From positions 1 to 46,858 of IMG/VR virus record IMGVR_UViG_3300018013_000015: DNA of 46,858 nt; one strand, 5' to 3'. The first letter of the stretch is position 1. Every line of letters starts with the position of its first letter. The stretch is from a virus. Of the stretch, positions 6,040 through 24,681 are shown in pieces. The translations under genes were made by a program, and so were the position numbers. The notes under the pieces are model-generated. The model was not told the origin of the DNA. It did not search any database and was given only the letters and a program-made list of their open reading frames with translations.

Positions 6040-6054
6040 TGTTCTGCTCCTTCT

Positions 6055-6067
6055 GCGGCGTGGCCGC
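6055..6067 (-). promoter_or_regulatory. Small hairpin next to the SSB-like gene ribosome site
   Basis: GCGGC-GTG-GCCGC, ending 2 bases upstream of AAGGAG (6052-6047) on the minus strand. Confidence 0.6.
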
Positions 6068-6069
6068 TC

Positions 6070-6885: not shown

Positions 6886-6909
6886 TGCTTTCCCCCTGCT
6901 CTCTTTGAG

Positions 6910-7224: not shown

Positions 7225-7248
7225 TACTTAGGACTCCTTCTCCTGCTC

Positions 7249-8307: not shown

Positions 8308-8465
8308 TATTCTTCCTCCAGTTCTTGAATATGTTTCTGCGCTTCACTACAGAAATTCTCAGCCAACCCAGGAGTTCTAAACGGTCCATCGGCTTGCAGC
8401 TTTGTTACTAACTGCACAGCCCACGTTAGAAACTGAATGAGTTTCATCTTCTGGAATTCCGTCAT
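8307..8465 (-). CDS. 52-residue helical hypothetical protein
   Basis: Encodes a short helical protein (MTEFQKMKLIQFLTWAVQLV at the start, an acidic LEEE end). Both ends overlap neighbours: the ATG overlaps the upstream stop as ATGA, and the stop overlaps the nuclease start as TAATG. This tight packing supports translation. No family recognised. Confidence 0.6.
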   Translation of the reverse strand: MTEFQKMKLIQFLTWAVQLVTKLQADGPFRTPGLAENFCSEAQKHIQELEEE

Positions 8466-9250
8466 TTCTTTCCCACCATCTTCGCTATGTCTTCTGGCTT
8501 CAAGCCCTTAGCAAGTAAATCCTTTAGTAAGGCATTCAGTTGCTCCGTAGCTTTCTGCTTTGAGACTGTGCGAGTTTTCTTTACTGTCGTTGTGGTTGTG
8601 CTAGTGACTCCGGCGGCGGGAGTTGAAGCGAAGTGGACCTTCACTCCGGCGTTTCGATGTAGATACGCCGCGTGCTTCTTCTCCTGCTCCGCGATCATAA
8701 GCTGTAGGATGTTACGATGATACTCAATCGTTAGATCAAGCTCTGCGTCGGATAGTTCGGGAATCTTACGCTGTGCAAACAGCCAGTCTAAGCCATCGAT
8801 CTTGATTTCACGAGCACGGCGTCTGTAGTATGAGAGCTGCCCCGTCTCTTCGTTTCTGTGTTCGTAGGACTTCGTAATCACGCTCTTTGATACAGATACG
8901 TCACTCATACAGTTGACGCAGTATTGCACGTCAATGTTCGATGCGTAGTGTAGGCAGAATGACTTACCACAGCCTGCACATTCGATAGATGACTTGTGAG
9001 TGAGATTTAGTTCAAGGCAGGAATCGCATACTAGGGAGGTTAAGTGACCTGGGTCTTCGTCGATAGGACTATCTGATGGCAGGGGAATCGTCGTTGCGGT
9101 TGCTTCTTCTGGTGTGATCTCTTCTGGCTCATCTGTTGGTATCGGAGGTTCTTCCTCGATTGGACTATCCGTAGACTCTGGGAACACATTGTCGGCTGCT
9201 TCATCTTCTATGGACCAGCCGTTAATACCATCATCCATGCACTCTGGCAT
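8462..9250 (-). CDS. Zinc-finger protein, 262 residues, acidic N-terminus
   Basis: Residues 1-70 are strongly acidic and Pro/Thr-rich. Residues about 73-118 hold a RING- or ribbon-like set of cysteines (CDSC, CAGCGKSFC, a His, CVNC), probably two zinc sites. A helical middle, a Thr-rich linker (TSTTTTTVKKTRT) and a C-terminal helix follow. AAGGAG lies 8 bases before the ATG. The function is not recognised; the DNA-replication neighbourhood suggests a nucleic-acid or protein adaptor. Confidence 0.6.
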   Translation of the reverse strand: MPECMDDGINGWSIEDEAADNVFPESTDSPIEEEPPIPTDEPEEITPEEATATTIPLPSDSPIDEDPGHLTSLVCDSCLELNLTHKSSIECAGCGKSFCLHYASNIDVQYCVNCMSDVSVSKSVITKSYEHRNEETGQLSYYRRRAREIKIDGLDWLFAQRKIPELSDAELDLTIEYHRNILQLMIAEQEKKHAAYLHRNAGVKVHFASTPAAGVTSTTTTTVKKTRTVSKQKATEQLNALLKDLLAKGLKPEDIAKMVGKK

Positions 9251-9283
9251 TGCTAAAGCTCCTTCACTCTTAGATTGGACTGC

Positions 9284-9520
9284 TTATGCTACTAAACTTT
9301 GTTTTTTACAGTTGCTCCTCTGCGCTTCTTTAGCGCGGGCCATTTCCTCCAGAGCTAGAGGGTAGATTTCTACGGGGAGTTTCTTAGATATGAAGTAGTG
9401 TAATAGCACACGCATCAGAGCACTCATTGACAGCATTGGATATTCTGTCTTCAAAGCCTCTGCCTGCGCTCGGAAAATTCGGACGGTCGAAGTGACGGTC
9501 AAGGCGCTTTGTCTAGGCAT
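9284..9520 (-). CDS. Ribbon-helix-helix-like regulator, first gene of replication operon
   Basis: A 78-residue protein with a short beta strand (ALTVTSTVRI) followed by two helices with a turn (ALKTEYPMLSMSALMRVLLH), the layout of Arc/MetJ ribbon-helix-helix DNA-binding proteins. It is the first gene after a near-consensus promoter (TTGACA, 17, TAAAAT). There is no Shine-Dalgarno sequence: only 6 bases separate the -10 box from the ATG, so the mRNA is probably leaderless. An autoregulatory role is inferred. Confidence 0.55.
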   Translation of the reverse strand: MPRQSALTVTSTVRIFRAQAEALKTEYPMLSMSALMRVLLHYFISKKLPVEIYPLALEEMARAKEAQRSNCKKQSLVA

Positions 9521-9526
9521 GAGTCC

Positions 9527-9555
9527 ATTTTACCGTTGTTTACACCCCTTGTCAA
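9527..9555 (-). promoter_or_regulatory. Consensus-like sigma70 promoter of the replication operon
   Basis: TTGACA at 9555-9550 and TAAAAT at 9532-9527, spacer 17. The next bases are GGACTC and then the ATG at 9520, so initiation 7 bases after the -10 would fall on the A of the start codon. Confidence 0.8.
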
Positions 9556-9582
9556 GAGGGGCGAAAACCGACCTAAGTCGTT

Positions 9583-9622
9583 GAAAACAAAGGGACCAGC
9601 CCGATTTTCGGGGCCGGCCCCT
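9583..9622 (-). terminator. Rho-independent terminator
   Basis: On the minus strand an imperfect GC-rich stem (AGGGGCCGGCCCCGA ... TCGGGCTGGTCCCT, loop AAA) is followed by TTTGTTTT. It lies downstream of the candidate lysin gene and just upstream of the replication promoter, so it separates two leftward transcription units. Confidence 0.75.
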
Positions 9623-9629
9623 CAGCATG

Positions 9630-9654
9630 GCTGTAGCATAAGAAATGCTACAGC
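9630..9654 (-). repeat. 10-bp perfect hairpin over the lysin stop codon
   Basis: GCTGTAGCAT, loop AAGAA, ATGCTACAGC on the plus strand. It covers the stop codon (9648-9650) of the candidate lysin and precedes the terminator; it may protect the mRNA 3' end. Confidence 0.6.
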
Positions 9655-10061
9655 ACCTCCAAAATGTCACCATCTGTCCACAACATACGTACCCAGTGCG
9701 GACTTACGATACAGCCGTCGCTGGCATCATGTGACATATCGTCAGTATCGCCATGGTTCAAGAAAGCACAGCGCCCGTACATTCTGTTCGTTGGCTCTGG
9801 CTCTAGTCGCCAGCACTGAGGACCACGTTTTGGGTCTTTATAGGGGCCGCGAAAAGTATAAGTCCCCGCTGGAATTGGACCTTGGTCAGCAATGTTTTGT
9901 GAGTGGATGTCGTTGAGCATACCAGGATGGCCGCTATAGCCAACGCCGATAAGCTCTAGGTCGGTGGGTTTTATACCATTGTCGAGAGTTGCTGGACCGG
10001 TGCCATTTTCGATGGAACGTTTGAAAAAGCAGCCCCAGTAGCGATCGTAGTAGTATTTCAT
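9648..10061 (-). CDS. L,D-transpeptidase-like (DUF2778/Tlde1-type) protein, candidate lysin
   Basis: A 137-residue protein with YSGHPGMLN, then GPIPAGTYTF, then H103 in LNHGD and C117 in ASDGCIV. The His...SxGC pair is the catalytic signature of YkuD/Tlde1-type L,D-transpeptidase-fold enzymes acting on peptidoglycan peptides. No other lysin candidate is evident, so a role in host lysis is inferred, although it lies in the leftward arm rather than with virion genes. No signal peptide, so it would need a holin. GAGGTG precedes the ATG, which overlaps the preceding stop by 4 bases. Confidence 0.65.
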   Translation of the reverse strand: MKYYYDRYWGCFFKRSIENGTGPATLDNGIKPTDLELIGVGYSGHPGMLNDIHSQNIADQGPIPAGTYTFRGPYKDPKRGPQCWRLEPEPTNRMYGRCAFLNHGDTDDMSHDASDGCIVSPHWVRMLWTDGDILEVL

Positions 10062-10567
10062 AGATTCACCTCAAATACATGAAGTACAAGGTTGCCTTCA
10101 AAGAAGAGTGCTGTTCCGATAAACTTTCCAGGTTTTGTTATCAGCCATCCAGTACCTAGGCTACGAAAATAACGTGATTCTATCACGCCTATTTCAGTGT
10201 CTATGAGTGCCCACAAATAAAGCTGGCTATTTTGTGTGCCAACGCTCAGTATTTGAGCGTTGCGTGGAAGTTCAAGAGTTGTATCGCCGTCCATGGTTAG
10301 CGGATACTTGAATATTTTGAGTTTCATTTCTGGCTCCTTGAAATGAAGACATTCGCAGTTAACTTCGCTACAATCTTCGGTATAGTCAACGTGAGATTCT
10401 CTCATATGAGCACAATTAGCACAAAGATCAGCAATATGCTCATACCAATAGGATTCATCAGCTTGCTCTTCATCAGGATCAGCCAAGCCTGCATCTTGAG
10501 GAGACACATAATCTCCTCCGTAATGCTGCTGCTCCATCAAATGCTCAGCTTCTGCTTTGGTTTGCAT
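10058..10567 (-). CDS. Zinc-motif domain fused to DUF7352-like domain
   Basis: A 169-residue protein. Residues 49-75 carry Cys/His ligands (CANCAH, then a His, C66, C71 and C73, H75). Residues 81-169 (beginning MKLKIFKYPL, then LELPRNAQILSVGTQN and ending HVFEV) resemble the small stand-alone phage DUF7352 family. AAGGAGG lies 4 bases before the ATG. A second AAGGAG stands 6 bases before M81 (base 10327), so the C-terminal domain may also be made alone. Function unknown. Confidence 0.6.
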   Translation of the reverse strand: MQTKAEAEHLMEQQHYGGDYVSPQDAGLADPDEEQADESYWYEHIADLCANCAHMRESHVDYTEDCSEVNCECLHFKEPEMKLKIFKYPLTMDGDTTLELPRNAQILSVGTQNSQLYLWALIDTEIGVIESRYFRSLGTGWLITKPGKFIGTALFFEGNLVLHVFEVNL

Positions 10568-11717
10568 ACTGCCTCCTTATCACCTCATTCTGATCGATGA
10601 TAGTTGCTATGTCTTTGATGGATACGAACGCGCTGTGCGCTCGCTTTGTGGTGTCCGAGCCGGCGATTTTGTACAAGTAATCTCCCATACCGAGTAAATT
10701 CTCTGCACCGTTTTCGTCCAGAACTACGCGAGAGTCCACACTGGATGGAAGCTTAAAGCACACACGCGCCGGGAAGTTTGCTTTGATGTCACCACTCAGG
10801 ATTTTGACCGATGGACGTTGCGTAGCTAGAATAAGATGCACTCCAGCGGCGCGACTAATCTGAGCGATGGTCTTAAGCAATGAGTGAATTGACGGTGGGC
10901 GCATCTTGCGCTCTATCTGAGAGAGAAATCCAGCATCTTGATCCAGCACATCTGCTAGCTCGTCGATGACAAGAACTTTGTACTTCATAGGTTTGTCGTC
11001 GTTCATGCTGTTCCACTCTCTGATATTACGACACAGCCCACTCATTTGCTGGTTTCGCAATCGCACTTCTTCGAGCAAGAGCAACAGCGCGGCGCGTAGG
11101 TCACTGATGTTGTCGAGGACGTACTTGACATGTCCAAGTCCTCTAAAAAGTACGAGATCAAGGTTTTTTGTGTCCACAAGTATAAACTCCAGCTCATCTT
11201 CGTTACGGAATAAAGCAAGCGAACATATAAGCTGGGCGGTGTAGACACTCTTACCACTATTAGTCGCGCCTGCAATGAGGAGGTGAGGTTGTACTGCCAA
11301 GTCGGCATAGAGATGTTCTCCTACTGTGGATTGGCCCATTAAGAGAGGCAGAGCCATGCCTGCTGTGACGGGTGAGATCATCATTTTGTGAAGGCACTCG
11401 TCGAATTTAATAAGCTGCCTGTCGCTTCGCGGGACAGATATGGTAAGCTCGCCGAGAAAGCGTTCAATGCGAACGGATTCTACAGCGAGCGAACCAGCAA
11501 GTTCTTCTTCTTTGTTTAAGATGCTTGAGAATTTTGGCTCGCCTAGGGGTCTAAAGTAGAATGTTCGTACTACTGGCCCCTCGACCATGCGAGTAAAAAG
11601 CGCACCAAAACCTAAGACAAGCATCTTACGTGTGAGAATAGCAACTTGCTTCTGTACCAGCGGTGGATAGGCAGCGAGGAGAGCTGATTGTGCTTGAGCT
11701 GCTTCACTTGGAAGCAT
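10545..11717 (-). CDS. FtsK/SpoIIIE-family DNA translocase
   Basis: A 390-residue protein with Walker A GATNSGKS at 150-157, FILVDTKNLDL, Walker B YKVLVIDELADV (D252, E253) and the family motif LILATQRPSV, then FPARVCFKLPSSVDSRVVLD. No transmembrane N-terminus and no gamma DNA-reading domain are evident, so it is a soluble motor core. FtsK-type proteins pump double-stranded DNA; here a role in DNA entry, replication or conflict with host DNA is possible but not shown. The packaging motor is encoded separately. ACAAGGAG precedes the ATG. Confidence 0.85.
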   Translation of the reverse strand: MLPSEAAQAQSALLAAYPPLVQKQVAILTRKMLVLGFGALFTRMVEGPVVRTFYFRPLGEPKFSSILNKEEELAGSLAVESVRIERFLGELTISVPRSDRQLIKFDECLHKMMISPVTAGMALPLLMGQSTVGEHLYADLAVQPHLLIAGATNSGKSVYTAQLICSLALFRNEDELEFILVDTKNLDLVLFRGLGHVKYVLDNISDLRAALLLLLEEVRLRNQQMSGLCRNIREWNSMNDDKPMKYKVLVIDELADVLDQDAGFLSQIERKMRPPSIHSLLKTIAQISRAAGVHLILATQRPSVKILSGDIKANFPARVCFKLPSSVDSRVVLDENGAENLLGMGDYLYKIAGSDTTKRAHSAFVSIKDIATIIDQNEVIRRQYANQSRS

Positions 11718-11910
11718 TGTTGCGCTCCTTGTAGTATTCTAACTGCTTTTCCATGCAATGATCGCCTAGTTCCAAGTGGCACAGAGAATTATAGTGAACA
11801 TAGACTGCGTTAATACGAAACTTGCTCTTTGAAGCTGGCACTTTGCTGTAGGCCAAGCTGGTTACTTTGACTAGTTTCAGCAGCTTGCTCTCAAACTCGA
11901 TTTGTTTCAT
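11704..11910 (-). CDS. Hypothetical protein, 68 residues
   Basis: Not recognised. Basic and lysine-rich with two cysteines (SLCHLELGDHCM). AAAGGAG precedes the ATG by 7 bases. It overlaps the FtsK-like gene start by 14 bases and the upstream gene end by 20, consistent with a coupled operon. Confidence 0.55.
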   Translation of the reverse strand: MKQIEFESKLLKLVKVTSLAYSKVPASKSKFRINAVYVHYNSLCHLELGDHCMEKQLEYYKERNNASK

Positions 11911-12091
11911 TGCTCCGCTCCTTTTTCTGTCTGCGTTCGTAAAAATTCAAACCAGCTTTATTAGCCGCTTGAAGAGCTTCCCACATACGTTCTCTGAAAT
12001 CTTCCGATGCAGATTCTGTGCGGTGTCTTGAGGTAGAAGTAAACCAAGCCTCCACCATTACGAAAAGAAGCTCGCTTGATGGACGCTTCAT
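11891..12091 (-). CDS. Hypothetical protein, 66 residues
   Basis: Not recognised. The chosen ATG at 12091 has GGGGAGG 5 bases upstream and overlaps the preceding stop as ATGA; an earlier in-frame start lacks such a site. The protein has a helical region (DFRERMWEALQAANKAGLNF) and a very basic tail. Confidence 0.55.
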   Translation of the reverse strand: MKRPSSELLFVMVEAWFTSTSRHRTESASEDFRERMWEALQAANKAGLNFYERRQKKERSNETNRV

Positions 12092-12240
12092 TTCCGCCTC
12101 CCCACATTCTTCGCCCACTCGTCAAAAGAATCGAAGAAGTCCTCAAACCACTCTTCATAACGAGAGGCTAAAAAGAGTGTAATGAAGGCGACGAAAAATC
12201 CAAAGCCTACGCCACTGACTATTACTAAGAAAGTTCTCAT
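12088..12240 (-). CDS. 50-residue single-pass membrane protein
   Basis: The N-terminus is one hydrophobic segment (FLVIVSGVGFGFFVAFITLF) followed by an acidic aromatic stretch (YEEWFEDFFDSF) and a basic end. This suggests an inner-membrane protein with a charged cytoplasmic tail. Both ends overlap neighbours by 4 bases (VWA gene stop upstream, 66-residue gene downstream). Function unknown; proximity to the VWA and FtsK-like genes is noted. Confidence 0.6.
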   Translation of the reverse strand: MRTFLVIVSGVGFGFFVAFITLFLASRYEEWFEDFFDSFDEWAKNVGRRK

Positions 12241-13061
12241 TTCTGCGCCCCGCTTTCTACTTGCGCTCTAAAGCTACTAGAGGCGAGCATCAATCTGTGG
12301 CACGGCGCCAAGTATTTGAACGCCGTAGCAAAGTTGACTTTCTGCGGATCAAAATGTAGGAAGTATCCGCCGGTTTTATCGGAGAGATACTTTAGCAACG
12401 CCATCTCTCCTTCTCTGAAGGCAGAGCCGAAGAATACTGTGTCGATTGGAATGCAAGGTCCATGCGCTCCGCTAGTCTTAGAGACATAGCCACCGGATAA
12501 AGATTGGTCGCCTATAGCGTACGCGATCTTGATGATAACGTCAGCGCTGGCTATCCAAGTATCTGGAGCGTTCGCACTAAAAACATAAATCTCGTCACTG
12601 TTCTCTGGCGACAGTTGGTCCGTCGGCGCGCCGTCTGTGAAAGCGATCAAGCGAGTTAGTGTAGGCTTCGCCTCAAGTGCTTTCTTGAGTGTGTTAAAGA
12701 ATGGCGTGCTGCCGGAAGAGAGCTGGGATTCTTGAATGTCCGCGGCCAGCTCCAAGAGGTTGCTACGAAGCTCAGTGCCCCATCTTGCCGTATTCATGAA
12801 GTGCACCGCTACAGCACTCTGGTTAGGAATGCAGTTGCGTAGGAATTCTACTACGCCGCGCTTTGCATTCTCGATTTGTTCGTTCATGCTACCGCTATCG
12901 TCAAAGACTATGCGGTTCCGATCTGGACACTCGCCGGGTGGCAGATAGCGTATAAGAGCGCTACGCTCCGCTCCGGCAGGTAACGCTTTTGCCCTAGCAG
13001 CTTCTATCGCTGCTCGCTTAGCGTCTACGGCGTTTCTATGGTTTTGGATTTGAAAGACCAT
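12237..13061 (-). CDS. von Willebrand factor A (VWA) domain protein with intact MIDAS
   Basis: A 274-residue protein with a VWA domain: VFDDSGSM (MIDAS D54, S56, S58), a GSTPFF threonine near 119 and the FTDGAPTD aspartate near 146. The metal-dependent ligand site therefore looks intact. VWA proteins in bacteria act as protein-binding partners, often of AAA+ ATPases such as MoxR; no MoxR is encoded here. AAGGAG lies 7 bases before the ATG. It lies in the same overlapping block as the J-domain and FtsK-like proteins. Confidence 0.85.
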   Translation of the reverse strand: MVFQIQNHRNAVDAKRAAIEAARAKALPAGAERSALIRYLPPGECPDRNRIVFDDSGSMNEQIENAKRGVVEFLRNCIPNQSAVAVHFMNTARWGTELRSNLLELAADIQESQLSSGSTPFFNTLKKALEAKPTLTRLIAFTDGAPTDQLSPENSDEIYVFSANAPDTWIASADVIIKIAYAIGDQSLSGGYVSKTSGAHGPCIPIDTVFFGSAFREGEMALLKYLSDKTGGYFLHFDPQKVNFATAFKYLAPCHRLMLASSSFRAQVESGAQK

Positions 13062-13353
13062 TACAGTTCTCCTTGATTTTGTTGATGTAGTACATAAGTT
13101 TCAGCAATACTTCAGGCTCGAAGTATATCACAACCTTCTCGCGGTAACAATGGTGAGAACCTGTCGAAAGGATCAGAGGAAAAGCTTCTGACTGCTGCGC
13201 ATAAACTCCATCACCGAGATACTCTGGCTCAAGCATTGTTATTCTCCATACAGGAGGATCATTTATCGCACAATGATCTTCGTATGCTTTTTCAGGAGTT
13301 ATGTACTCTGCAAAATCTTGAGGACCGTGCGAATGGCGCTGTTTCTTAGGCAT
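13036..13353 (-). CDS. Hypothetical protein, 105 residues
   Basis: Not recognised. The ATG at 13353 is chosen because AAAAGGAG lies 9 bases upstream; an in-frame ATG 9 codons earlier has no such site. The N-terminus is basic and His-rich (PKKQRHSHGPQDF). A beta-rich middle and a helix (PEVLLKLMYYINKIKEN) follow. Overlaps the VWA gene start by 26 bases. Confidence 0.55.
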   Translation of the reverse strand: MPKKQRHSHGPQDFAEYITPEKAYEDHCAINDPPVWRITMLEPEYLGDGVYAQQSEAFPLILSTGSHHCYREKVVIYFEPEVLLKLMYYINKIKENCNGLSNPKP

Positions 13354-13546
13354 TGTTAGTTCTCCTTTTAAAACATTCATGTCTTAACCAGTTGCGTAAC
13401 TGCGCAGGTGTGGTAATTTCTCTCTCCAAGTTACAGCGTTGACAACTAACAGAGACATAATCGAATGTTGTGATATTCTCTTTGTCGTGTATCATAACTT
13501 GAGTGAGGAATTGTAATAAGCCAAGCGCTTGACCAATCTTAGGCAT
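13346..13546 (-). CDS. 66-residue zinc-finger-like protein
   Basis: The ATG at 13546 has GGAG 8 bases upstream; another ATG lies 3 codons earlier. The C-terminal half has CQRC and a later HEC set about 20 residues on, enough for one zinc site. The N-terminal half is helical (GQALGLLQFLTQVM). It overlaps the end of the J-domain gene by 8 bases. Function unknown. Confidence 0.55.
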   Translation of the reverse strand: MPKIGQALGLLQFLTQVMIHDKENITTFDYVSVSCQRCNLEREITTPAQLRNWLRHECFKRRTNNA

Positions 13547-14108
13547 TGTACACACTCCAGAGTGAGTTTAACTCAGTCATTTTTGTACCGTCGCCGTTAT
13601 TACGATCAGGATGATACCTGAGTGCAGCGCGGCGATAGGCCGACTTGTCAAGCACATCTCCCATTAGGGCTTTGAGCTTCTGCTCAAGCGTTTCCTTCGT
13701 CATCGGCACTGCTGCTACAGGCTTGCCGTAGTTATAGAAAAAGTCTTCCGGCTTCAGCCTCTGGCTATGGCCGTTGAATGTGATTCGATTGTTTAGTGCT
13801 TGCGCTGCGAGGTCTTCTACTTCAAAGCACTGAATCTCACTTTGAATAGCTTTTGTAACATCCTTGAGTGCTTGTATAACTTTCGCGCCCCAGTCGTCAA
13901 AATAGCTCCAGACTTTGTTTGTTTCGTCGTAGCTTCGCTGTGCTACAGGAGGATACTTCAAGACTTCCTTGCACATTTCGAAAGCAATCTGCTCTTTGGG
14001 GTTGCGAAAGTTTATGGCGAGGTGGCCATCGCCGTAGGAAGAGAGACGCATCTCAGTCAGAATGATTTTGCCAGTGGCGTCTTTGTGCTGTTCGTAGTAT
14101 AAGTACAC
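13539..14108 (-). CDS. J-domain (DnaJ-like) protein with unrelated N-terminal domain
   Basis: A 189-residue protein with a J-domain at the very C-terminus: YRRAALRYHPDRNNGDG with HPD at 166-168, preceded by helix I (KLKALMGDVL) and followed by a helix ending SLWSVYN. J-domains stimulate DnaK ATPase; no DnaK is encoded, so the host one would be the target. Residues 1-120 contain RSYDETNKVWSYF, which recalls small substrate-binding segments, but no family is certain. The start is GTG with AAAGGA 10 bases upstream and a GCAGC-GCTGC hairpin just before that. Inverted placement (J-domain last) is known in some phage proteins. Confidence 0.75.
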   Translation of the reverse strand: MYLYYEQHKDATGKIILTEMRLSSYGDGHLAINFRNPKEQIAFEMCKEVLKYPPVAQRSYDETNKVWSYFDDWGAKVIQALKDVTKAIQSEIQCFEVEDLAAQALNNRITFNGHSQRLKPEDFFYNYGKPVAAVPMTKETLEQKLKALMGDVLDKSAYRRAALRYHPDRNNGDGTKMTELNSLWSVYNA

Positions 14109-14127
14109 GGCTTCGCTGTCCTTTCCC

Positions 14128-14140
14128 GCAGCAACGCTGC
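14128..14140 (-). promoter_or_regulatory. Small hairpin next to the J-domain gene ribosome site
   Basis: GCAGC-AAC-GCTGC, ending 3 bases upstream of AAAGGA (14124-14119) on the minus strand. Confidence 0.6.
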
Positions 14141-14152
14141 TAAGAAGTTAGA

Positions 14153-14238
14153 GGTTTTGCAAAATTCATAGGAGCATCCGCCCGGAGGTTTTTAGGCGTC
14201 CCCAGATGCTCCTATGTGTGGAATTTGCACCACAAACC
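14153..14238. repeat. Imperfect long inverted repeat in the J-domain gene leader
   Basis: A perfect core of 12 bp (CATAGGAGCATC 14167-14178, GATGCTCCTATG 14205-14216) is extended outward by matching TGCAAA(A)TT and GGTTT blocks to 14153 and 14238, with bulges. An inner CGCC/GGCG stem lies in the loop. It fills most of the 14109-14251 gap, which holds no gene. Confidence 0.7.
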
Positions 14239-14251
14239 GCTCAGCTATAGC

Positions 14252-14878
14252 CTAGGCTTCGACTTCTTCCGTCTCGGCGTCGGCGGTGCCAGCCTTCTGC
14301 ATTGCAGAGATCAGACTCAGCACAGCGGTAGCAGCCGCATCCTCACTGTAGCCCGCGGCGACCAGTTGCTTGAGCAGCTTATCCTCAAGCGACAAACCGC
14401 GCTTCGACGGCAGCGTGGAGATGCTGTAAGTGCCGTTCTCGTCCACACCGACACGAAGGTCGATATTCTGTCCGTCGAGTTCTGGTGTAGGCTCGGCCTC
14501 GCCGTCCTTGTTCGCCTTCATAGCAGCCTGAATGACCTGAGTCTGCCATGCGGAGTGGCCCTTCTGGATGATGTAGAGCTGCTGCTTCGGATCGGGATAC
14601 AGCAGAGCGAAGCCATCCAGCGACTTGATGTCGTAAGTGGTAAATTCGTTCTCGTTGAAGAGATTCAAACCTGCGGCTTCGGCGTTGGCCCAGTTCACCG
14701 GCTTGCCATCCTTGTCTTTCTTTTCGGATTCGACAAGAATGCTCTGCGTCTTGATCACCGTGGTTGTGTTACTGTTAGCATCGGTGACAGTTTCAAAGCT
14801 AACATACCGACGCGCCATATCTTTCCGTTGAGAGATGGCGCCTACGGCATCTGCGAGTGTTGCTGTGGAAGTACCCAT
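14252..14878 (-). CDS. Hypothetical protein, 208 residues
   Basis: Not recognised. It has a beta-rich centre (SFETVTDANSNTTTVIKTQS) and an acidic C-terminus (ADAETEEVEA). A region near 100-120 (QQLYIIQKGHSAWQTQVIQ) could be a small alpha/beta fold. AAAGGAG precedes the ATG by 10 bases, and the 226-base leader before it is strongly structured. It is probably an abundant early protein given its clean start site, but this is inference. Confidence 0.6.
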   Translation of the reverse strand: MGTSTATLADAVGAISQRKDMARRYVSFETVTDANSNTTTVIKTQSILVESEKKDKDGKPVNWANAEAAGLNLFNENEFTTYDIKSLDGFALLYPDPKQQLYIIQKGHSAWQTQVIQAAMKANKDGEAEPTPELDGQNIDLRVGVDENGTYSISTLPSKRGLSLEDKLLKQLVAAGYSEDAAATAVLSLISAMQKAGTADAETEEVEA

Positions 14879-14947
14879 GTTTGTACTGCTCCTTTGGTGA
14901 ATCAGATTCTCCGTTTAAGGAGAGTTTGAGTAGCACCGATTCGGTGC

Positions 14948-15091
14948 GTGTACTCTTTAGGACGGAGGAAAAGAGGGGAGAATGGTCTAGTAGAAGCAAG
15001 CTGTTACGCCGGTCTACTAGCGCCCAAGAGTCTCTTCGGCTCCGTCCTAAAGAATACACTCTCAGTCTATGCTGAGATTGAGTGTATTCTT
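14948..15091 (-). promoter_or_regulatory. Overlapping alternative RNA hairpins upstream of the 208-residue gene
   Basis: Stem A pairs 14948-14967 with 15040-15059 (20 bp, one G-U-type mismatch) and encloses an 8-bp hairpin (CTAGTAGA/TCTACTAG, 14987-15020). Stem B pairs 15050-15061 with 15080-15091 (12 bp, perfect) around CTCAG/CTGAG. The two stems share 15050-15059, so they cannot form together. A further hairpin GCACCG-ATT-CGGTGC lies at 14933-14947. No gene is supported in 14879-15104. Confidence 0.65.
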
Positions 15092-15104
15092 CGGGGTTGC
15101 CGCG

Positions 15105-15371
15105 TTAAGTTCGTGCTTGGAGAATTGCTTGAAGCTGTGCTTTGGTGAAGTTGTTGATGCTGTTGATGGGGCTGTAGTTGATATCAAAGATATCAAACAC
15201 ATCCGCCAGAGCATCAGGCTTGATTACAAAGGTTCCTGGTTCAAGCCATTCGTCACGCTCGTCTTGATCTTCTACTGTGAGCTTCAGCACAAGCGTTACT
15301 TCGATTTCTTGCGGAAACGTCGTAGATACTACGGCAGGTGCTGGATGTGGAACGTTGATTGATTCGGGCAT
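15105..15371 (-). CDS. Hypothetical protein, 88 residues
   Basis: Not recognised. It has Pro-rich N-terminal residues, then a beta segment (EIEVTLVLKLTVEDQ), an acidic loop (DERDEWLEPGTF) and a helix ending TKAQLQAILQ. AAGGAG lies 7 bases before the ATG. A strong promoter directly upstream would give a leader of only about 19 bases. Confidence 0.6.
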   Translation of the reverse strand: MPESINVPHPAPAVVSTTFPQEIEVTLVLKLTVEDQDERDEWLEPGTFVIKPDALADVFDIFDINYSPINSINNFTKAQLQAILQART

Positions 15372-15396
15372 TTGAATTCTCCTTGGCCATTCTTCA

Positions 15397-15426
15397 ATTG
15401 TACGCCTTGCGGCGGCGGGTTGTCAA
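15397..15426 (-). promoter_or_regulatory. Sigma70-like promoter
   Basis: TTGACA at 15426-15421 and TACAAT at 15402-15397, spacer 18. It drives the 88-residue gene and probably the genes below it. Initiation 7 bases after the -10 would fall on the A of an ATG at 15390 that is not in frame with the gene. Confidence 0.75.
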
Positions 15427-15429
15427 GGG

Positions 15430-15457
15430 CTAAAGCCCTGTTTTTGCAGGGCTTTAG
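15430..15457. repeat. 11-bp perfect hairpin between two early genes
   Basis: CTAAAGCCCTG, 6-nt loop, CAGGGCTTTAG. It lies between the stop of the 187-residue gene and the promoter at 15397-15426. No U-tract follows on the minus strand, so a weak or factor-dependent terminator is the most that can be said. Confidence 0.6.
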
Positions 15458-15470
15458 GGCATAAAACGAG

Positions 15471-16034
15471 TCACTGCACCGTGTCAGTCGGCGCAGGCGT
15501 TTGCGCTATTTCTGGAACGGCGGCGCTCAAGAGAGAGAGCACATCTTCTATGCAATTGCAATGTGCTCTTTCGTGTACGAATTGCTCGAAGTCCTTGTCG
15601 GTTGAAGAAGGTGACAGCTTGTCGTAGCTAACGCCCATCAGATAATGCGCAGCGTTGTGAAAATTCAGCACTGCGTCCATAGCTACGACACCGATATTGC
15701 AGAACAGATTCTCCGAAGGCGTCGCAATGGTCATAGATTCGAGCGAGTTTTTGTTCGTGGGATGGCTGACCTCGCTAAGCATGTAGCTGAGGAGCATATC
15801 AGATAAGTGCTCAATAGCTTTGATGTAGTAGTATTGAGCTATCTCCTCCTTGCTCGCAGCTGGGTCGTCGAAGAACTCAGCTTTGGTGCGTGCCATCGTA
15901 CGATTCAGCACTTCTGCCAGCTCAGTAGTACATCTGCCTAGCGCTTGGCTGAATTCGTGGTAACGTTCCGGTTGAAAAATCTCATGAACAGAGGGTATTT
16001 TTCTGTCCACAGCTTCGGTATTTTCATCAAGCAT
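15471..16034 (-). CDS. Hypothetical protein, 187 residues
   Basis: Not recognised. Mostly helical with YYYIKAIEHLSDMLLSYMLS, a His-rich stretch (NFHNAAHYLMG) and a late HERAHCNC motif that could bind a metal ion. AAGGAG stands 7 bases before the ATG, and a CGGC-TTC-GCCG hairpin ends 3 bases upstream of it. The leader contains a compact three-way-junction fold. Confidence 0.6.
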   Translation of the reverse strand: MLDENTEAVDRKIPSVHEIFQPERYHEFSQALGRCTTELAEVLNRTMARTKAEFFDDPAASKEEIAQYYYIKAIEHLSDMLLSYMLSEVSHPTNKNSLESMTIATPSENLFCNIGVVAMDAVLNFHNAAHYLMGVSYDKLSPSSTDKDFEQFVHERAHCNCIEDVLSLLSAAVPEIAQTPAPTDTVQ

Positions 16035-16074
16035 CTTAATTCTCCTTTTTCGGCTTCGCCGGTAGAGCCTTAGC

Positions 16075-16163
16075 TCTGTGAGCTAGAGGTAGCATTATAG
16101 GCTGTCGAATTTATGCTACGGTATAGAGAAGTTTCCCCTACTTCTCTAGCTCTAGCTCACAGA
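16075..16163 (-). promoter_or_regulatory. Three-way-junction RNA fold in the leader of the 187-residue gene
   Basis: The outer stem is 14 bp and perfect (16075-16088 with 16150-16163). Inside are two hairpins: GTAGCAT/ATGCTAC (16089-16095, 16113-16119) and TAGAGAAGT/ACTTCTCTA (16124-16132, 16140-16148). Joining strands are 0, 4 and 1 bases. Two more small hairpins lie between it and the start site (16064-16077 and 16051-16061). Confidence 0.7.
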
Positions 16164-16185
16164 ACCGAGGGTTTGGATGAAGTGC

Positions 16186-16308
16186 TTAGACTTTCTCCTT
16201 CGTAAGACGTGCGCTGTTTACTGAATCAATCGCATCTGCTAGATTACGGTCGATCATGTCGCAGTAAGCGTTCCCTGCTTTTTCTCGTAATTCCTTCGTC
16301 AGTTCCAT
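16186..16308 (-). CDS. 40-residue hypothetical protein
   Basis: Short gene with an excellent start: AGGAGG 5 bases before the ATG. The protein is helical and charged (MELTKELREKAGNAYCDMID at the start). A GTAGC-GCG-GCTAC hairpin lies 6 bases upstream of the ribosome site. Function unknown. Confidence 0.55.
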   Translation of the reverse strand: MELTKELREKAGNAYCDMIDRNLADAIDSVNSARLTKEKV

Positions 16309-16339
16309 CTCATCCTCCTGCGCCTGTAGCGCGGCTACC

Positions 16340-16555
16340 TCAATCTGTGATAGAAAGTCTGTCAATAACCTTTATCTTCCCTGCTATGTGTCCAGCGTGA
16401 TACGAGAGATCGAGAGTTTGGTCGATGTACTTAATAGCATCGCTGTCGATAGCAAAGCGTAGCTGTAGCAGATGGATCAGCAAGTCACGACTTTCGGAGA
16501 TGTGCGGATCTTTTTGAAAATTGTATGCGATGATTGGTACTGTCGGTGTGGACAT
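16340..16555 (-). CDS. 71-residue hypothetical protein
   Basis: The ATG at 16555 is chosen for the AAAAGGAG 8 bases upstream. An in-frame ATG at 16621 lies within a folded leader and has no such site. The protein is helical (SESRDLLIHLLQLRFAIDSD, then HAGHIAGKIKVIDRL). Not recognised. Confidence 0.55.
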   Translation of the reverse strand: MSTPTVPIIAYNFQKDPHISESRDLLIHLLQLRFAIDSDAIKYIDQTLDLSYHAGHIAGKIKVIDRLSITD

Positions 16556-16602
16556 TGCAGATTCTCCTTTTAGAGCATCAAAACTGCTTGCTTCGTGCTC
16601 TC

Positions 16603-16747
16603 TTCCCTGTAGGAACTCCATCGACCAGAGTCTATTGAGTAGTTTTATTCTACTCGCATCCTGTCGATGAGTTCGCGCATTTTGGTTGGCCTAGTAAGAC
16701 CATGCTCTACAGGAAAGAGAACCGAAGTTCTCTCGCACCGAAGGTGC
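16603..16747 (-). promoter_or_regulatory. Nested hairpins in the leader of the 71-residue gene
   Basis: Stems: TTCCCTGTAG/CTACAGGAA (16603-16612, 16707-16715, one bulge); GAACTCCATCGAC/GTCGATGAGTTC (16613-16625, 16663-16674, one bulge); GAGTAG/CTACTC (16637-16655); AGAGAAC-CGAA-GTTCTCT (16716-16733); GCACC-GAA-GGTGC (16735-16747). On the minus-strand RNA the fourth has a UUCG loop. No promoter or gene seen in this gap. Confidence 0.6.
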
Positions 16748-16953
16748 TATGCTTGCGCTTGCTGAAGCTGTTGCTTTAGCTTTCGCGCTGCGCGATAGCG
16801 TTTAGCATGGCTCACAAACGTAGGTTGTTTGACATGCTGCAGCGTCGGCGTCAAACGCATCCGCGCTGCGTCTACACGAGGGGTTGAGTCAGCAAAACGC
16901 CACGTTGCTTCTAACTCGTCGGCGCTTACGTCGTGGAATTGGGTGCTTCGCAT
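16747..16953 (-). CDS. 68-residue basic hypothetical protein
   Basis: The ATG at 16953 has AAGGAG 9 bases upstream; a GCGCC-GAA-GGCGC hairpin (16971-16983) ends 2 bases before that. The C-terminus is strongly basic and Gln-rich (KRYRAARKLKQQLQQAQA), which suits nucleic-acid or ribosome binding, but no family is recognised. Confidence 0.55.
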   Translation of the reverse strand: MRSTQFHDVSADELEATWRFADSTPRVDAARMRLTPTLQHVKQPTFVSHAKRYRAARKLKQQLQQAQA

Positions 16954-16970
16954 TTTCGGATTCTCCTTGT

Positions 16971-16983
16971 GCGCCGAAGGCGC
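16971..16983 (-). promoter_or_regulatory. Small hairpin next to the 68-residue gene ribosome site
   Basis: GCGCC-GAA-GGCGC, ending 2 bases upstream of AAGGAG (16968-16963) on the minus strand. Confidence 0.6.
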
Positions 16984-17113
16984 TGCTGCTTCTGTAGCTG
17001 TAGCTCTGTTACGTACCGCGGCGACTTGTCGCCGTAGCTGTACTGCGCAGTAACTGCTACTACAACACATGCGCTAATGCAGTCCACGGCGCCTCCGGCG
17101 CTGCGGCGTTGGT

Positions 17114-17263
17114 TTATTCAAATACGATCATGCCGAACATAGCAGCTAACGTCAACATCACGATACGGATGATACGGCTGATACGACGTGGGTATGTGCG
17201 CTCTGCGAATGAGAGCAATGTAGCTGTGAGGAGCAGAAAGAGGGTTGCTGAAGCATATTTCAT
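17114..17263 (-). CDS. 49-residue two-segment membrane protein
   Basis: Two hydrophobic stretches (ATLFLLLTATLLSFA and IVMLTLAAMFGMIVF) flank a basic loop (ERTYPRRISRIIRI). This suggests a small inner-membrane hairpin protein. AGGAG lies 8 bases before the ATG, with a GGAGC-TTGC-GCTCC hairpin 2 bases upstream. Function unknown. The gap below it (16954-17113) holds a nested hairpin at 16995-17060 and no gene. Confidence 0.55.
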   Translation of the reverse strand: MKYASATLFLLLTATLLSFAERTYPRRISRIIRIVMLTLAAMFGMIVFE

Positions 17264-17278
17264 CTCATATTCTCCTAC

Positions 17279-17381
17279 GGAGCTTGCGCTCCCATAGCCG
17301 CATCAAGCAACACTGTGACGTTATAATTGATCTACTGTGTCAGTGCAACCTAGTGCGGCTATGGCAGAGCAAGGTCTGCCA
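17279..17381 (-). promoter_or_regulatory. Hairpin series between two small membrane-protein genes
   Basis: GGAGC/GCTCC (17279-17292), CCATAGCCGC/GCGGCTATGG (17292-17301, 17355-17364) enclosing CACTG/CAGTG around the same centre, and TGGCAGA/TCTGCCA (17362-17381). No gene is supported in 17264-17411. Confidence 0.6.
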
Positions 17382-17411
17382 GCGTGGCTTCGTCGCTACA
17401 GTGCTACGTCG

Positions 17412-17549
17412 CTACAGCTTCAGTAGCCACGCCGCGAGCCAGCAGCCTACTGTGATGATTGCCAGAATGTACGCTGCTTTCTCTGCTTTGTAAAGCCAAT
17501 GCAGCGACGTGTGTGAGATGTTACCTTCTTTGGTCCAGTGATAGGGCAT
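17412..17549 (-). CDS. 45-residue C-tail-anchored membrane protein
   Basis: The ATG at 17549 has AAAGGAG about 10 bases upstream. The N-terminal half is polar (PYHWTKEGNISHTSLHWL). The C-terminal half is one hydrophobic segment (AYILAIITVGCWLAAWLLKL) running to the end. Function unknown. Confidence 0.5.
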   Translation of the reverse strand: MPYHWTKEGNISHTSLHWLYKAEKAAYILAIITVGCWLAAWLLKL

Positions 17550-17577
17550 TGCTGGTGTTCTCCTTTGTGCTACGGTT

Positions 17578-18051
17578 CTACAGAGGTGAAAAGTCCTCAA
17601 ACGTGGGATCAGTAGCGTTATCTACTTCTTCAAGAGGCGCGTACTCTCTTCCCTCTCTAGCAGCCCAGACTTCTCTAGCGTCCTCAAGATCATCTTGCGT
17701 AACGGAACGTGCTAGAGAATCCTCTCTGATCTGTGCTGTGATAGCTTTCTTATTAGTTTCCACAGATATAGAGAGCAACTCCTTATTCGTTACTGTCGGC
17801 AGTTTCAAAGCTACGGCGCGTACAGAGGATATGTACTCAGCTCTTGCATCATTATACGCTCTGCACTCTACTTTGAACTTATCCCTATGTCTAGCATACT
17901 GCAACACCGCCGCGTCTGATGCCGTCGGTCCTGTAGCAGCAAGTCTTAATCTCGTATTATACGAACACGCACTCTGATACCTAAGTTGTGCCTCAGCAAA
18001 CCTCAACACTGCCTCAGCATTAGTATTTTGTATAGCCTTCGCAAAACTCAT
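17578..18051 (-). CDS. Hypothetical helical protein, 157 residues
   Basis: Not recognised. Almost entirely helical and charged, with coiled-coil-like stretches (FAEAQLRYQSACSYNTRLRL). The ATG at 18051 has GGAGG 5 bases upstream. A near-consensus promoter lies 19 bases further up, so this is probably the first gene of an early unit. Confidence 0.6.
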   Translation of the reverse strand: MSFAKAIQNTNAEAVLRFAEAQLRYQSACSYNTRLRLAATGPTASDAAVLQYARHRDKFKVECRAYNDARAEYISSVRAVALKLPTVTNKELLSISVETNKKAITAQIREDSLARSVTQDDLEDAREVWAAREGREYAPLEEVDNATDPTFEDFSPL

Positions 18052-18069
18052 TCTGTCCTCCACTTGACT

Positions 18070-18098
18070 ATTCTATCCCATCGAAGGGTGGTTGTCAA
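18070..18098 (-). promoter_or_regulatory. Near-consensus sigma70 promoter
   Basis: TTGACA at 18098-18093 and TAGAAT at 18075-18070, spacer 17. Drives the 157-residue gene, with a normal leader holding GGAGG. Its -35 region lies at the outer edge of the large inverted repeat. Confidence 0.8.
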
Positions 18099-18431
18099 GT
18101 CTGGAGCCGAGGCTAAAGTCTTTGTTTTGTGTCTTTTACACGACCCACCCTAGCGTCACGATTTTTTTCGACCCGATGTGGGCTTTGTGCGCAGGCGCGG
18201 GCGAAGCCGTGCAAAGAGAAAGTGTAAGAGAGTTCTTAGTATATGTATATATTATTATATATATATTTATTCACTATAAGAACTACCCCTTTCTACAGCT
18301 TTTCATAACCGCCCCTTTCTCCCTTCCAACCGCGCATCGGGTAGAGCAAAAACAGTGACGGTAGGGTAGCCGAGCAAAACGAGAGAAAACAAAGGACTTC
18401 GCCGAGTCTGACGGGCATAGACCCACCCTTC
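18083..18431. repeat. 349-bp degenerate inverted repeat with AT-only centre
   Basis: Matching blocks lie at equal distance from a centre at about 18257: GAAGGGTGG (18083)/CCACCCTTC (18431); AAGTCTTTGTTTT (18116)/AAAACAAAGGACTT (18399); ACCCTAGCGTCAC (18147)/GTGACGGTAGGGT (18367, 12 of 13); ACCCGATG (18171)/CATCGGGT (18342); AGTTCTTA (18231)/TAAGAACT (18284). The core 18240-18271 is almost only A and T. The 18099-18558 stretch holds no credible gene; a 7-bp hairpin GACAGGG/CCCTGTC lies near 18506-18526. Confidence 0.75.
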
Positions 18432-18558
18432 CTTCTTACAGAATAAACCCGCAAGCCAGAAGAGAGAGAAAGCATACACTCCACACACGCACACGCAGAG
18501 CTAGACAGGGATATTCTCCCTGTCCGCTCTGTTGCTACGGCACACTGATGCGCTTGCG

Positions 18559-19068
18559 CTACTTGATCATGTTCTTATCGAATCCGTAGAACCTGCACAC
18601 TGCGCGGAACCCGGATTCCATCTGCTCTGGCATAAAAGTACGTTTGTCGAGCAGTTTCGCTTTCAATGCGCTCAGCAATGTAGCAAGCTGACCGCCGGTG
18701 CAAGTGTCCTTCAGCGTCTCAAGCTGTTGCTCGGCAAACTTGCGGAGCACATCCTCTTTGCTGGTCAGCGTCATATAGTTTGATAACAGTGTCAACACAT
18801 ACGACGCACGCATATCGCTGAAAATCTTTGTCGATGCTTCTTGCTTCAAGCTGTAGATCGCATACAACGTGGCGCTGTCCAAGCCTTGCGCTGCATACTC
18901 TACTAGGTCATCGCGCTCTGCATCCTTGAGTGCTGCCCACCGTGAGGTTAGTGCAATTTTCTCACGCTCTGTAAACACTGACAGCGGATTGAATTCTGTT
19001 CCCGCTGTCGCTCTGGAGTCTGTAACCTTCACAGACTTCAACTCTGTTGCATTGGTTTCTTGTGACAT
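18559..19068 (-). CDS. Hypothetical protein, 169 residues, first leftward gene
   Basis: Not recognised. Helical, soluble protein (FTEREKIALTSRWAALKDAE, then LSALKAKLLDKRTFM). AGGAG lies 6 bases before the ATG, and an ACAGGGT/ACCCTGT hairpin (19082-19100) ends 2 bases upstream. It is the gene nearest the divergent control region, so probably expressed very early. No clear promoter could be placed for it. Confidence 0.6.
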   Translation of the reverse strand: MSQETNATELKSVKVTDSRATAGTEFNPLSVFTEREKIALTSRWAALKDAERDDLVEYAAQGLDSATLYAIYSLKQEASTKIFSDMRASYVLTLLSNYMTLTSKEDVLRKFAEQQLETLKDTCTGGQLATLLSALKAKLLDKRTFMPEQMESGFRAVCRFYGFDKNMIK

Positions 19069-22062: not shown

Positions 22063-24681
22063 TTGAGTCAACGTGAGATAGAACAGAAGGTACGAGATGT
22101 ACTTCGTAGCTTAGAAGTTGGAGCTACTGGGGATACTTTCGTACCTCGTTCTACTGTGCTAGGCTATAATCTTATTCCTACGGATACAGCAAAGACTGGT
22201 GCTGAGAAGAAGCTCATCTATCGTGCAAACTCTCTGATGGATCTGTACTACTTTAGCACTGTAGTAATGGGCAAGAATCGCTTCTCCAAGAACCCAGACA
22301 AAGCAAAGAATCTTCACTACCAGATGTGCCTCACTGTAATGAAAGACGGCCTCAAGGAAGGAATCGAGATTCCACGTGACCACTTCAAAAGCACAGTCTA
22401 CAGCGAGTGTTTTCCGATCTGGCGAGCATTACCTTTTGGCAAACGGGAAGAAGATTTCTTTAGCTCAGTTGGATACTCTGATCTCTATATTGAGTGGATG
22501 CGTCGAACCCACAGCCAGGACATACGCATACTACTGGTCAGTGAAACCATCAAGAACGCAATCAAACTGGGTATCCGAATCTCAAACCACTACGAAAACA
22601 ATGCATTCTTCCGGCATCTTTTTCCTGAGCTAATGCCTACTGAGAAGGAGACGTGGACTAATGAATCTCTGCACCAGCGACGGACTCCTGCCGGTAGAGG
22701 TCAAGGAGAAGGTACTTACGATTTCATTGGAGTTGGAGCTGCCTTACAATCTCGGCACTACAACGTCGTCGTACAAGACGATCTTGTCGGGAGAGAAGCT
22801 CGGAAATCTTCAATTGTTATGGCGGATACTATTGACTACCATCAGATTCTGGTGGGCGCTACGGACAGCGATCCCAACAATCCCGGTAGAGACTTTGACG
22901 AAATCGTAGTAGCAAACCGCTGGTCCCACGATGATCTCAATTCACACATTCGGCAGGAAGAGCCTTATTTTAGTTGGACTACTCACTCCGCTTTGGGTGG
23001 TTGCTGTTCTCTTCATCCTTTCGGTACACCTATTTTCCCAGAGGCTTTCACTGCCGAAAAGCTCCTCCGCTGGAAGCATCGTCTTGGGAGTTATCATTTT
23101 TCTTGTTTTGCTGCTGGCACTTCTGTACTTATGGCTGATTACTCCGAGAAGCCTATTGAAGCTCTTCAAGTAGGAGATGAGATCGTAGGTTATACGACGG
23201 ATAACTATCTAACACTTCAGAAAGCCACTGTACAAGCTGTCAATGTTAGAAATGCAGATGTTTTTGAATTTACAACCGCTTCGGGAAGAGTGCTAAATTG
23301 TACAGCAGATCATAAGTTTCTAAAGACTTCACATAGGACTGATGATCGTGGCGGACCCTATGCTGCTATAGTAGATTTTAGCAGACGTAAAAATCCATTT
23401 ATGGAGCTTGCTTCTGTCTATACTCCGATCAAGCCGCCTTCTACTGAGCAACTTGCACTACTAAGTTGGCTTGGTGGTATGATGGATGGCGAGGGATCAT
23501 GCGGAGTGAATGGTCAGTTATGTATATCGCAATCTCCTAGAATAAATCCACTGGTTTGTGCAAGACTAGAGGAGGTTTTAAAAAAGCTTGAGATTCCTTA
23601 CGTTTACAGAGCTGACTCAGAGCAATACTTCTTGCATGGTGGAAGATCATTGAAAGTATGGCTATTGGCTTATGCTTCTATGGCTAAGCATCAACGTGTT
23701 CGTGATAGTTTATGGAATAAGCCAGGTAGAGTAATGGAAGATAGAGGTATTGACCAGGTTATAGGATTGAAACATCTTGGAACGTTGCCTGTATATAATA
23801 TTCAAAGTAGTACAGGAAATTATATAGCTGCTGGTTACGCAACTAAGAACTGCCAGTTTCTTAACTACCCTATTGATCCTTCTAAAGCCAAGTTTAACAT
23901 GGCGGATTTTCGGTACTTTCACTTCGAGAAAGTAACCGGCGCGTTGTCGATTCCAAAGGAAAGTCCAGTTATAAATCGCTTATTCGAGGTTTCGCAGCCG
24001 CAGCAATATCGCATCGTCATACGTCATCACGTCGCCGATGGAGATGTAGAGAAAGATATCTTCCCTCGCAATCTTGATCGTTACATGGTTGTTGATCCTA
24101 ATCATGGCGGTTCACACTTAGGACAAGAAGTCGGAAAAGATGGGCGCTGTCGTCATGCTATCGCCGTGACTGGAGTAATGCGCGACCCACGTCGTGTCTA
24201 CTTACTCGATCAGTGGGCTAAAGCCTGTCCTATAGACGACTTCGTGAAGAAGATCTTCTTCTACGCTATCAAATGGAAGCTTCGTACAGTCTACGTCGAA
24301 GCTGTAGCAGCTCAGAAGTATCTTCTCTATCACTTGAACTACTTCGTCGAAGAGCATAAAGATTCTCATCCAGAGATTGCTGGAATACAGTTTCTTCCTC
24401 TGAAAACTCCGCAGAATGCCAATGCTAAAGCAGAACGTATTGAGAATTTTATTCCAATCGTCGAGCGGCATGAGCTTTGGCTTGACGTAAACAACTGCGT
24501 AGAGACTAAGGAAGAAGCTGAGCAGTACGGACAGCGCAAAGGTTTAATCGATCTTCTCGATGTACTTAGCTACGGTCCTCAAGTATGGAAATTCGATACT
24601 GTATCTAAAGAGAAGGTCGATGACTTCATGGCTTTACAGAAAGTGCGGTTTGCTAGACGTATGGCAGCCGCGGCGGCCTAG
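22063..24681 (+). CDS. terL: Large terminase subunit (TerL) interrupted by an intein
   Basis: An 872-residue precursor; exteins total 623 residues. The N-extein ATPase has a P-loop-like IPRDHFKST (103-111) and Walker B VVVQDD (235-240). The C-extein has the RNase H-fold nuclease starting RYMVVDPNHGG and continuing with VYLLDQWAKACPIDDF. The extein join HFS/CQFLNYPIDPSKAKF restores a conserved terminase segment between the ATPase and nuclease. TTG start, directly after the preceding stop, with AGAGGG about 10 bases upstream. It powers DNA packaging through the portal at 25172-27142. Confidence 0.9.
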   Translation: MSQREIEQKVRDVLRSLEVGATGDTFVPRSTVLGYNLIPTDTAKTGAEKKLIYRANSLMDLYYFSTVVMGKNRFSKNPDKAKNLHYQMCLTVMKDGLKEGIEIPRDHFKSTVYSECFPIWRALPFGKREEDFFSSVGYSDLYIEWMRRTHSQDIRILLVSETIKNAIKLGIRISNHYENNAFFRHLFPELMPTEKETWTNESLHQRRTPAGRGQGEGTYDFIGVGAALQSRHYNVVVQDDLVGREARKSSIVMADTIDYHQILVGATDSDPNNPGRDFDEIVVANRWSHDDLNSHIRQEEPYFSWTTHSALGGCCSLHPFGTPIFPEAFTAEKLLRWKHRLGSYHFSCFAAGTSVLMADYSEKPIEALQVGDEIVGYTTDNYLTLQKATVQAVNVRNADVFEFTTASGRVLNCTADHKFLKTSHRTDDRGGPYAAIVDFSRRKNPFMELASVYTPIKPPSTEQLALLSWLGGMMDGEGSCGVNGQLCISQSPRINPLVCARLEEVLKKLEIPYVYRADSEQYFLHGGRSLKVWLLAYASMAKHQRVRDSLWNKPGRVMEDRGIDQVIGLKHLGTLPVYNIQSSTGNYIAAGYATKNCQFLNYPIDPSKAKFNMADFRYFHFEKVTGALSIPKESPVINRLFEVSQPQQYRIVIRHHVADGDVEKDIFPRNLDRYMVVDPNHGGSHLGQEVGKDGRCRHAIAVTGVMRDPRRVYLLDQWAKACPIDDFVKKIFFYAIKWKLRTVYVEAVAAQKYLLYHLNYFVEEHKDSHPEIAGIQFLPLKTPQNANAKAERIENFIPIVERHELWLDVNNCVETKEEAEQYGQRKGLIDLLDVLSYGPQVWKFDTVSKEKVDDFMALQKVRFARRMAAAAA
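23104..23850 (+). mobile_element. Intein with LAGLIDADG-type homing domain inside terL
   Basis: Residues 348-596 of the precursor (249 residues). It starts with C348 in CFAAGTSVLMADYSEKPIEA, then LQVGDEIVGY; a TADHKFL block B-like segment follows near 414-420. It ends VYNIQSSTGNYIAAGYATKN (N596) before C597 of the C-extein. The penultimate residue is Lys rather than the common His. A single LAGLIDADG-like motif, WLGGMMDGEGS (469-479), indicates a homing endonuclease domain. The DNA looks more AT-rich than its flanks, which fits later acquisition. Confidence 0.9.

Follow-up and report, generated by a model that had tools for sequence, protein, structure and literature searches.

In IMG/VR virus record IMGVR_UViG_3300018013_000015, the early operon is headed by an untranslated gap with a large imperfect palindrome that is conserved among related tailed phages by position and symmetry while its letters have changed. 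The symmetry of its arms is maintained, and it is maintained at the DNA level. Neither an RNA nor any known phage site among those tested accounts for the element, and we regard it as a DNA control site, most likely the place where copying of the genome starts. More specifically, we give nearly an even chance to its being the double-stranded DNA replication origin of this tailed-phage family, with the A+T-rich axis serving as the unwinding element. Because initiator sites differ, sequence rarely reveals where the origin of an uncultivated phage lies, and here symmetry and a duplex-stability minimum together point to one site per genome without alignable sequence. Throughout, the window means the whole 46,858-nucleotide stretch that was analyzed.

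The palindrome and its genomic setting

A preliminary description of this DNA had placed a degenerate palindrome of 349 bp between two genes. The palindrome is there, flanked by two leftward ORFs, g169 and g161, but gapped self-alignment and the inverted-repeat list give it a length of 377 bp, with the axis at ~18256. The features are as follows, with a strand given where one applies.

18069-18445: whole imperfect palindrome, from self-alignment, the inverted-repeat list and the top peak of the window
18069-18252: left arm, from self-alignment; the next gene's promoter has its -35 and -10 within reach of this arm, overlapping its outer end
18259-18445: right arm, from self-alignment
18069-18091/18423-18445: inverted arm pair, start plus end sum 36514
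18111-18137/18377-18403: inverted arm pair, sum 36514
18147-18166/18348-18367: inverted arm pair, sum 36514
18162-18185/18328-18351: inverted arm pair, sum 36513
18239-18276: A+T-rich axis, 34 of 38 bases A or T; least stable 50-bp duplex of the window, centered at 18259
18070-18098, minus strand: sigma-70-type promoter TTGACA-17-TAGAAT, matching 11 of 12 consensus positions and reading leftward, away from the axis
17578-18063, minus strand: g161, first gene after the promoter, ATG at 18051; predicted helical coiled protein with homologues found (model pLDDT 72)
18559-19068, minus strand: g169, conserved gene on the other side of the element, homologues found (model pLDDT 67)
22063-24681: TerL, on the rightward side

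When the two arms were aligned to each other, 129 of 197 columns were identities, giving a score of 103 that was reached by none of 1000 dinucleotide shuffles of each arm (mean 26.1, sd 4.7, maximum 44). The element is also the highest palindrome peak in a scan of the whole window, at 111, and the next peak scores 57. Symmetry no better than that of shuffled sequence had been named beforehand as grounds for giving up the proposal; the shuffle result, along with the recurrence of the element in relatives, instead bears out the view that the arms are two diverged inverted copies and not chance hairpins. The mirrored blocks reported around a common center are present as well, with start plus end sums of 36513-36514, and so is the strong promoter at the left edge, running from 18098 to 18070 on the minus strand. 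The center, which had been called AT-only, is A/T-rich, but the 38 bases between AGTTCTTA (18231-18238) and TAAGAACT (18277-18284) include two G and two C, and the longest pure A/T run in the core is 18246-18271. In both the sequence and the self-alignment the center is not a perfect palindrome. The inverted-repeat listing of the element contains no operator-like repeat family, and no conserved initiator-binding site was found in the arms among the lineages compared. The best arm motif, TGAAAACA/TTTGTTTTC-like, is enriched relative to shuffles; it is weak and present in some lineages only.

The ends of the record overlap by 123 bases, so that it closes into a circle. Genes are directed leftward from 1 to 19068 and rightward from about 20084 to 46165, and the early side encodes a DUF3987 primase-like protein, a family A polymerase, a Sak4-like protein, a PD-(D/E)XK exonuclease and an FtsK-like protein. 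TerS and TerL lie 2-4 kb from the element, and the stability minimum of the window is 2.1 kb before TerS. Fold searches with the structures predicted for g161 and g169 returned nothing significant, and a phage-collection search gave no match for g169, for the 248-aa ORF taken as TerS or for the portal. The TerL ORF has an intein region of the Hint/homing-endonuclease type, where the match of residues about 348-423 to Hom_end_hint falls short of the curated cut-off. The family A DNA polymerase is apparently split, its ORFs at 1541-3019 and 3673-4773 matching different parts of phrog_17. Also within the phage early region are an FtsK/SpoIIIE-like gene at 10545-11717 and, at 9648-10061 of the window, an ORF with a Tlde1 domain (Pfam PF10908) that is possibly a cell-wall-active protein.

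Conservation among relatives

For relatives, we used IMG/VR tailed-phage contigs, where a scan with the N-terminal part of TerL gave 80 loci of 110 matches, and we added further contigs by scans with g169 and g161 alignments. As queries, g161 alone found no relative among viral contigs, and g169 alignment A1 found none among genome contigs. Removal of near-duplicates (>90% identity) reduced 31 regions to 20 clusters, among which related clusters remain, and the counts are not counts of independent events. When the window and 25 loci were first scanned, the highest palindrome peak fell immediately upstream of g161 in most of the sequences that include this region. The preliminary description had called for such a comparison, and the symmetry does recur: an imperfect palindrome with a symmetric score of at least 49 is found at the same place in 18 of the 20 clusters, the exceptions being L056, which scores 45, and L049, which has its best score elsewhere. 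Local shuffles, scanned with steps twice as coarse as those used for the real sequences, reached the observed score in 0 of 150 trials for 20 of 22 regions, in 1 of 150 for L056 and in 13 of 150 for L049. In the genomes covered by the palindrome scan, the next peaks score 48-61, and there is no second palindrome of comparable size.

The element spans about 350-472 bp in relatives (354-455 bp in the clear cases), and its axis lies 175-283 bp before the g161 start, a distance that is not comparable for L065, without a recognized g161, or for L072, with a different reference. Outside the A+T core, the elements of many relatives do not align. All 21 of 21 regions (19 clusters, with L049 and L056 among them) have a TTGACA with a TATAAT-like partner at 35-67 bp before g161, a distance measured from an arbitrary point in L065, and this conserved promoter points away from the element. 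In L049 the A+T region, the promoter and an arm-type motif are retained (around 280 bp upstream of g161), but no palindrome could be detected. In G004, where neither g161 nor g169 is recognized, the element was located at the matching position from the stability minimum alone: the least stable site is 2.3 kb before TerS, a palindrome is there, and it is followed by TTGACA-18-TATACT and an ORF. The G004 palindrome scores 72 in a local search; when the whole genome is scanned more coarsely, it scores 56 and does not rank first. A literature search that covered few subscription journals found no description of such an element. L094, a contig of 99640 bases and thus twice the usual size, has one g161 homologue and the element; it could be either an assembly of another kind or a bigger virus. 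The relative L001 has an ORF at 6114-6473 that consists of almost pure Gly/Ser/Tyr/Asp repeats.

Duplex stability was profiled in 50-bp windows with nearest-neighbor energies from the standard table. The axis coincides with the least stable 50-bp duplex in 23 of 23 sequences scanned (seven long records plus sixteen shorter loci, with near-duplicates among them); when the window size is raised to 100 bp, a site elsewhere in G008 is slightly weaker. Thus an A+T-rich element, the unwinding component of theta-type phage and plasmid origins, is present. The same scan of lambda, T7, N15 and c2 put the least stable site somewhere other than the known origin, so a stability minimum alone is no proof of an origin. 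The second least stable site is in or near the origin in c2, where the origin is annotated, and in T7, where we assumed its position.

Arm symmetry at the DNA level and what the element may be

The preliminary description had offered three functions, and of these a replication origin is now the best reading, although unproven, while a giant RNA hairpin and a site for DNA ends or concatemer resolution have both been weakened. In the hairpin case, a leftward non-coding or leader transcript across the element would fold into a long rod. Both strands do give folds much more stable than those of shuffled sequence (minus strand, -140.8 kcal/mol, z -5.9; plus strand, -136.5 kcal/mol, z -6.4), which is true of any palindrome. 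RNA under selection would show an excess of G-U on its strand. Over 18 clusters, the arm mismatches (n=696) are 113 G-U, 114 A-C and 469 others, the same as in shuffled arms (17.1%, 16.5% and 66.4%, respectively), and there is no G-U excess on either strand; the distant phage MW202554, taken together with ten more loci, has 91 G-U, 75 A-C and 262 others, a small difference. From the lack of a G-U excess on either strand, we conclude that the symmetry is kept at the DNA level and not as an RNA hairpin. The strong promoter also starts beyond the element, a window scan found no promoter just upstream on the minus strand, and Rfam gave 0 matches at gathering score. The marks of a structured non-coding RNA, one-strand G-U with covariation or a described family, were not found, and we consider a functional RNA hairpin very unlikely.

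Arm pairs are kept above the permutation expectation in most comparisons of moderately related phages. Double changes restore complementarity in 9 of 14 cases from L035 to L025, 16 of 32 from L044 to L093 and 14 of 24 from L012 to L093; several comparisons, above all those from L078 (9 of 25 from L078 to L093), show little or no excess. The restoring changes exceed one third in many pairs, not all, where the expectation does not model uneven conservation along the arms. Such a pattern would also arise if a polymerase switched templates between inverted arms in the A+T-rich region upstream of the promoter and copied arm onto arm, with the symmetry itself unselected. Template switching homogenizes imperfect inverted repeats, as the accessible text of PMC8604942 describes, and the arms are alike within one genome while relatives diverge, with no wobble preference among the changes. 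Against this, palindromes of such size are not found elsewhere in the genomes, so the process would have to be confined to one place and persist there through deep divergence. Template switching can explain the likeness of the arms and could even be the whole story, but we think it unlikely that the element is simply its by-product; if it is, the element would be a clear example from nature of inverted arms evolving in concert over a long time.

The other reading to be taken seriously is an array of sites that regulate the promoter. Here the arms would be paired operator sites, and a phage or host protein would loop over the A+T centre to control the strong early g161 promoter, with no role in replication. 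This fits the placement of the element directly upstream of the promoter's gene, the promoter at the same end in all 21 regions, L049 with no palindrome and L056 with a borderline one among them, and the enrichment of the arm motif. However, some 350-470 bp are symmetric with little sequence conserved, unlike operator arrays, which keep their sites, and the lack of an operator-like repeat family likewise makes purely regulatory DNA distinctly unlikely. A telomere, concatemer-resolution or packaging site (protelomerase-like or pac-like) would resemble the N15 protelomerase target (tos/telRL), which is also a large imperfect palindrome in a phage intergenic region and gives a similar signal in our scan (score 109 at 24800). 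The N15 target differs in having a central cut-site inverted repeat and a protelomerase gene, and the element lacks both: protelomerase PF16684 was found in 0 of 7 records searched, and there is no perfect central palindrome. With the record closing into a circle and TerS/TerL 2-4 kb away, a site of this kind is highly improbable.

For the replication-origin reading, we count the symmetry above shuffles, the DNA-level mismatch pattern, the least stable axis in all 23 sequences, the promoter in all 21 regions, the location in an early-operon gap with replication genes, the like design in MW202554 and the published parallels given below; we count against it that no initiator was found, that the arm motif occurs in some lineages only, that DnaA boxes are not conserved, that the GC-skew minimum is off the axis, that L049 has no palindrome and L056 a borderline one, and that in four well-known phages the stability minimum is not at the origin. 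At such an origin, the A+T axis would melt as the unwinding element, and the inverted arms, if bound by an initiator, would look alike from either side to the initiation complex, or to a hairpin or cruciform that forms on melted DNA, allowing forks to leave in both directions. Since the strong early promoter at one end reads away, its transcription would be expected to leave negative supercoils in the element and help melting, by the twin-domain principle. We think it rather doubtful, if still conceivable, that the origin is recognized by its symmetric shape (a hairpin or cruciform formed as the axis melts) and not by fixed binding sequences, in which case evolution would preserve the mirror layout and its place in the genome while the letters drift. 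If what is kept is the shape rather than the sequence, phages would have a separate means of specifying an origin.

GC skew and DnaA boxes are not decisive for the origin reading. A skew minimum at the element had been raised in the preliminary description, and in the window it is near but not at the axis (19629 or, detrended, 23071 versus 18256). Where readable, the minimum is 1.3-6.5 kb to the right of the element, roughly at the change in gene direction, which confounds it. No DnaA box, of the kind that adjoins the unwinding element in a DnaA-dependent oriC, is conserved in the 20 cluster representatives of the window's group.

Herpes simplex virus OriS and OriL are much shorter than the element. 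Like it, they have inverted arms, in their case protein-binding, about an A+T spacer, and in OriS the boxes are inverted about a spacer that melts (PMC12543377, accessible text); they differ in belonging to a eukaryotic virus and carrying a known initiator's fixed boxes, whereas the element is about 400 bp and fixed boxes were not found in it. A less exact parallel than OriS is ori-lambda, where inverted iterons lie beside an A+T-rich region and transcription activates the origin, according to the portion of PMC5043065 available; the iterons are those of a known initiator inside a gene, with A+T on one side, and the element is intergenic with A+T at the axis. Bacterial oriC with gidA resembles the element in that an unwinding region adjoins a promoter reading away, and the available part of PMC6606810 argues that transcription-driven supercoiling helps origin opening there, but oriC is defined by DnaA boxes, which are not conserved in the element. 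Mycobacterial prophage origins are described as RNA-based, and the accessible text of PMC7157519 mentions no palindrome or A+T axis. Lactococcus phage c2 shares with the window its leftward early and rightward late genes and a putative origin is annotated in a gap of 611 bp that also holds early promoters, but that region differs in having no palindrome above background (peak 55 at 7310).

MW202554 and other TerL relatives

MW202554 (L158), whose TerL is 25% identical to that of the window, is built in the same way but with a stronger palindrome: this scores 135 and has its axis at 8456, and the stability minimum in 50-bp windows is at 8463. A perfect DnaA box, TTATCCACA, occurs once in this locus of 30.6 kb, 36 bp from the axis, and is absent from the close relatives of MW202554. 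We then scanned 46 of 68 loci of TerL relatives. Under a strict rule (top peak of at least 70 at the least stable site), 2 of the 46, L173 and L175, pass. Nine of the 46 have a TerL 60-71% identical to that of MW202554, and in eight of these (not L165) the highest or second-highest peak scores 60-105 and stands about 1.0-1.4 kb before TerL, with an A+T axis in five; L164, L166 and L167 are GC-rich without an A+T axis. Shuffles reached the L167 peak in 1 of 100 cases and the L186 peak in 7 of 100. Among loci with a TerL about 21-41% identical, peak and stability minimum do not coincide, except weakly in L184 and L186, and the TerL relatives MW202701, ANMV-1, PA11 and MEP402 are without the element. 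Bcep781 (63% GC) has peaks up to 91 that are apparently composition-driven and off its least stable site, so at high GC raw palindrome scores cannot be compared. Among named phages, the DNA of the region gave one 60-base match, in MW202701, which we rejected as a carrier of a comparable element because the top peak in its first 50 kb is 68 and its least stable site is elsewhere. In L158, a hypothetical protein (UOF78553.1, 8353-8664) is annotated across the palindrome and could be a false gene prediction.
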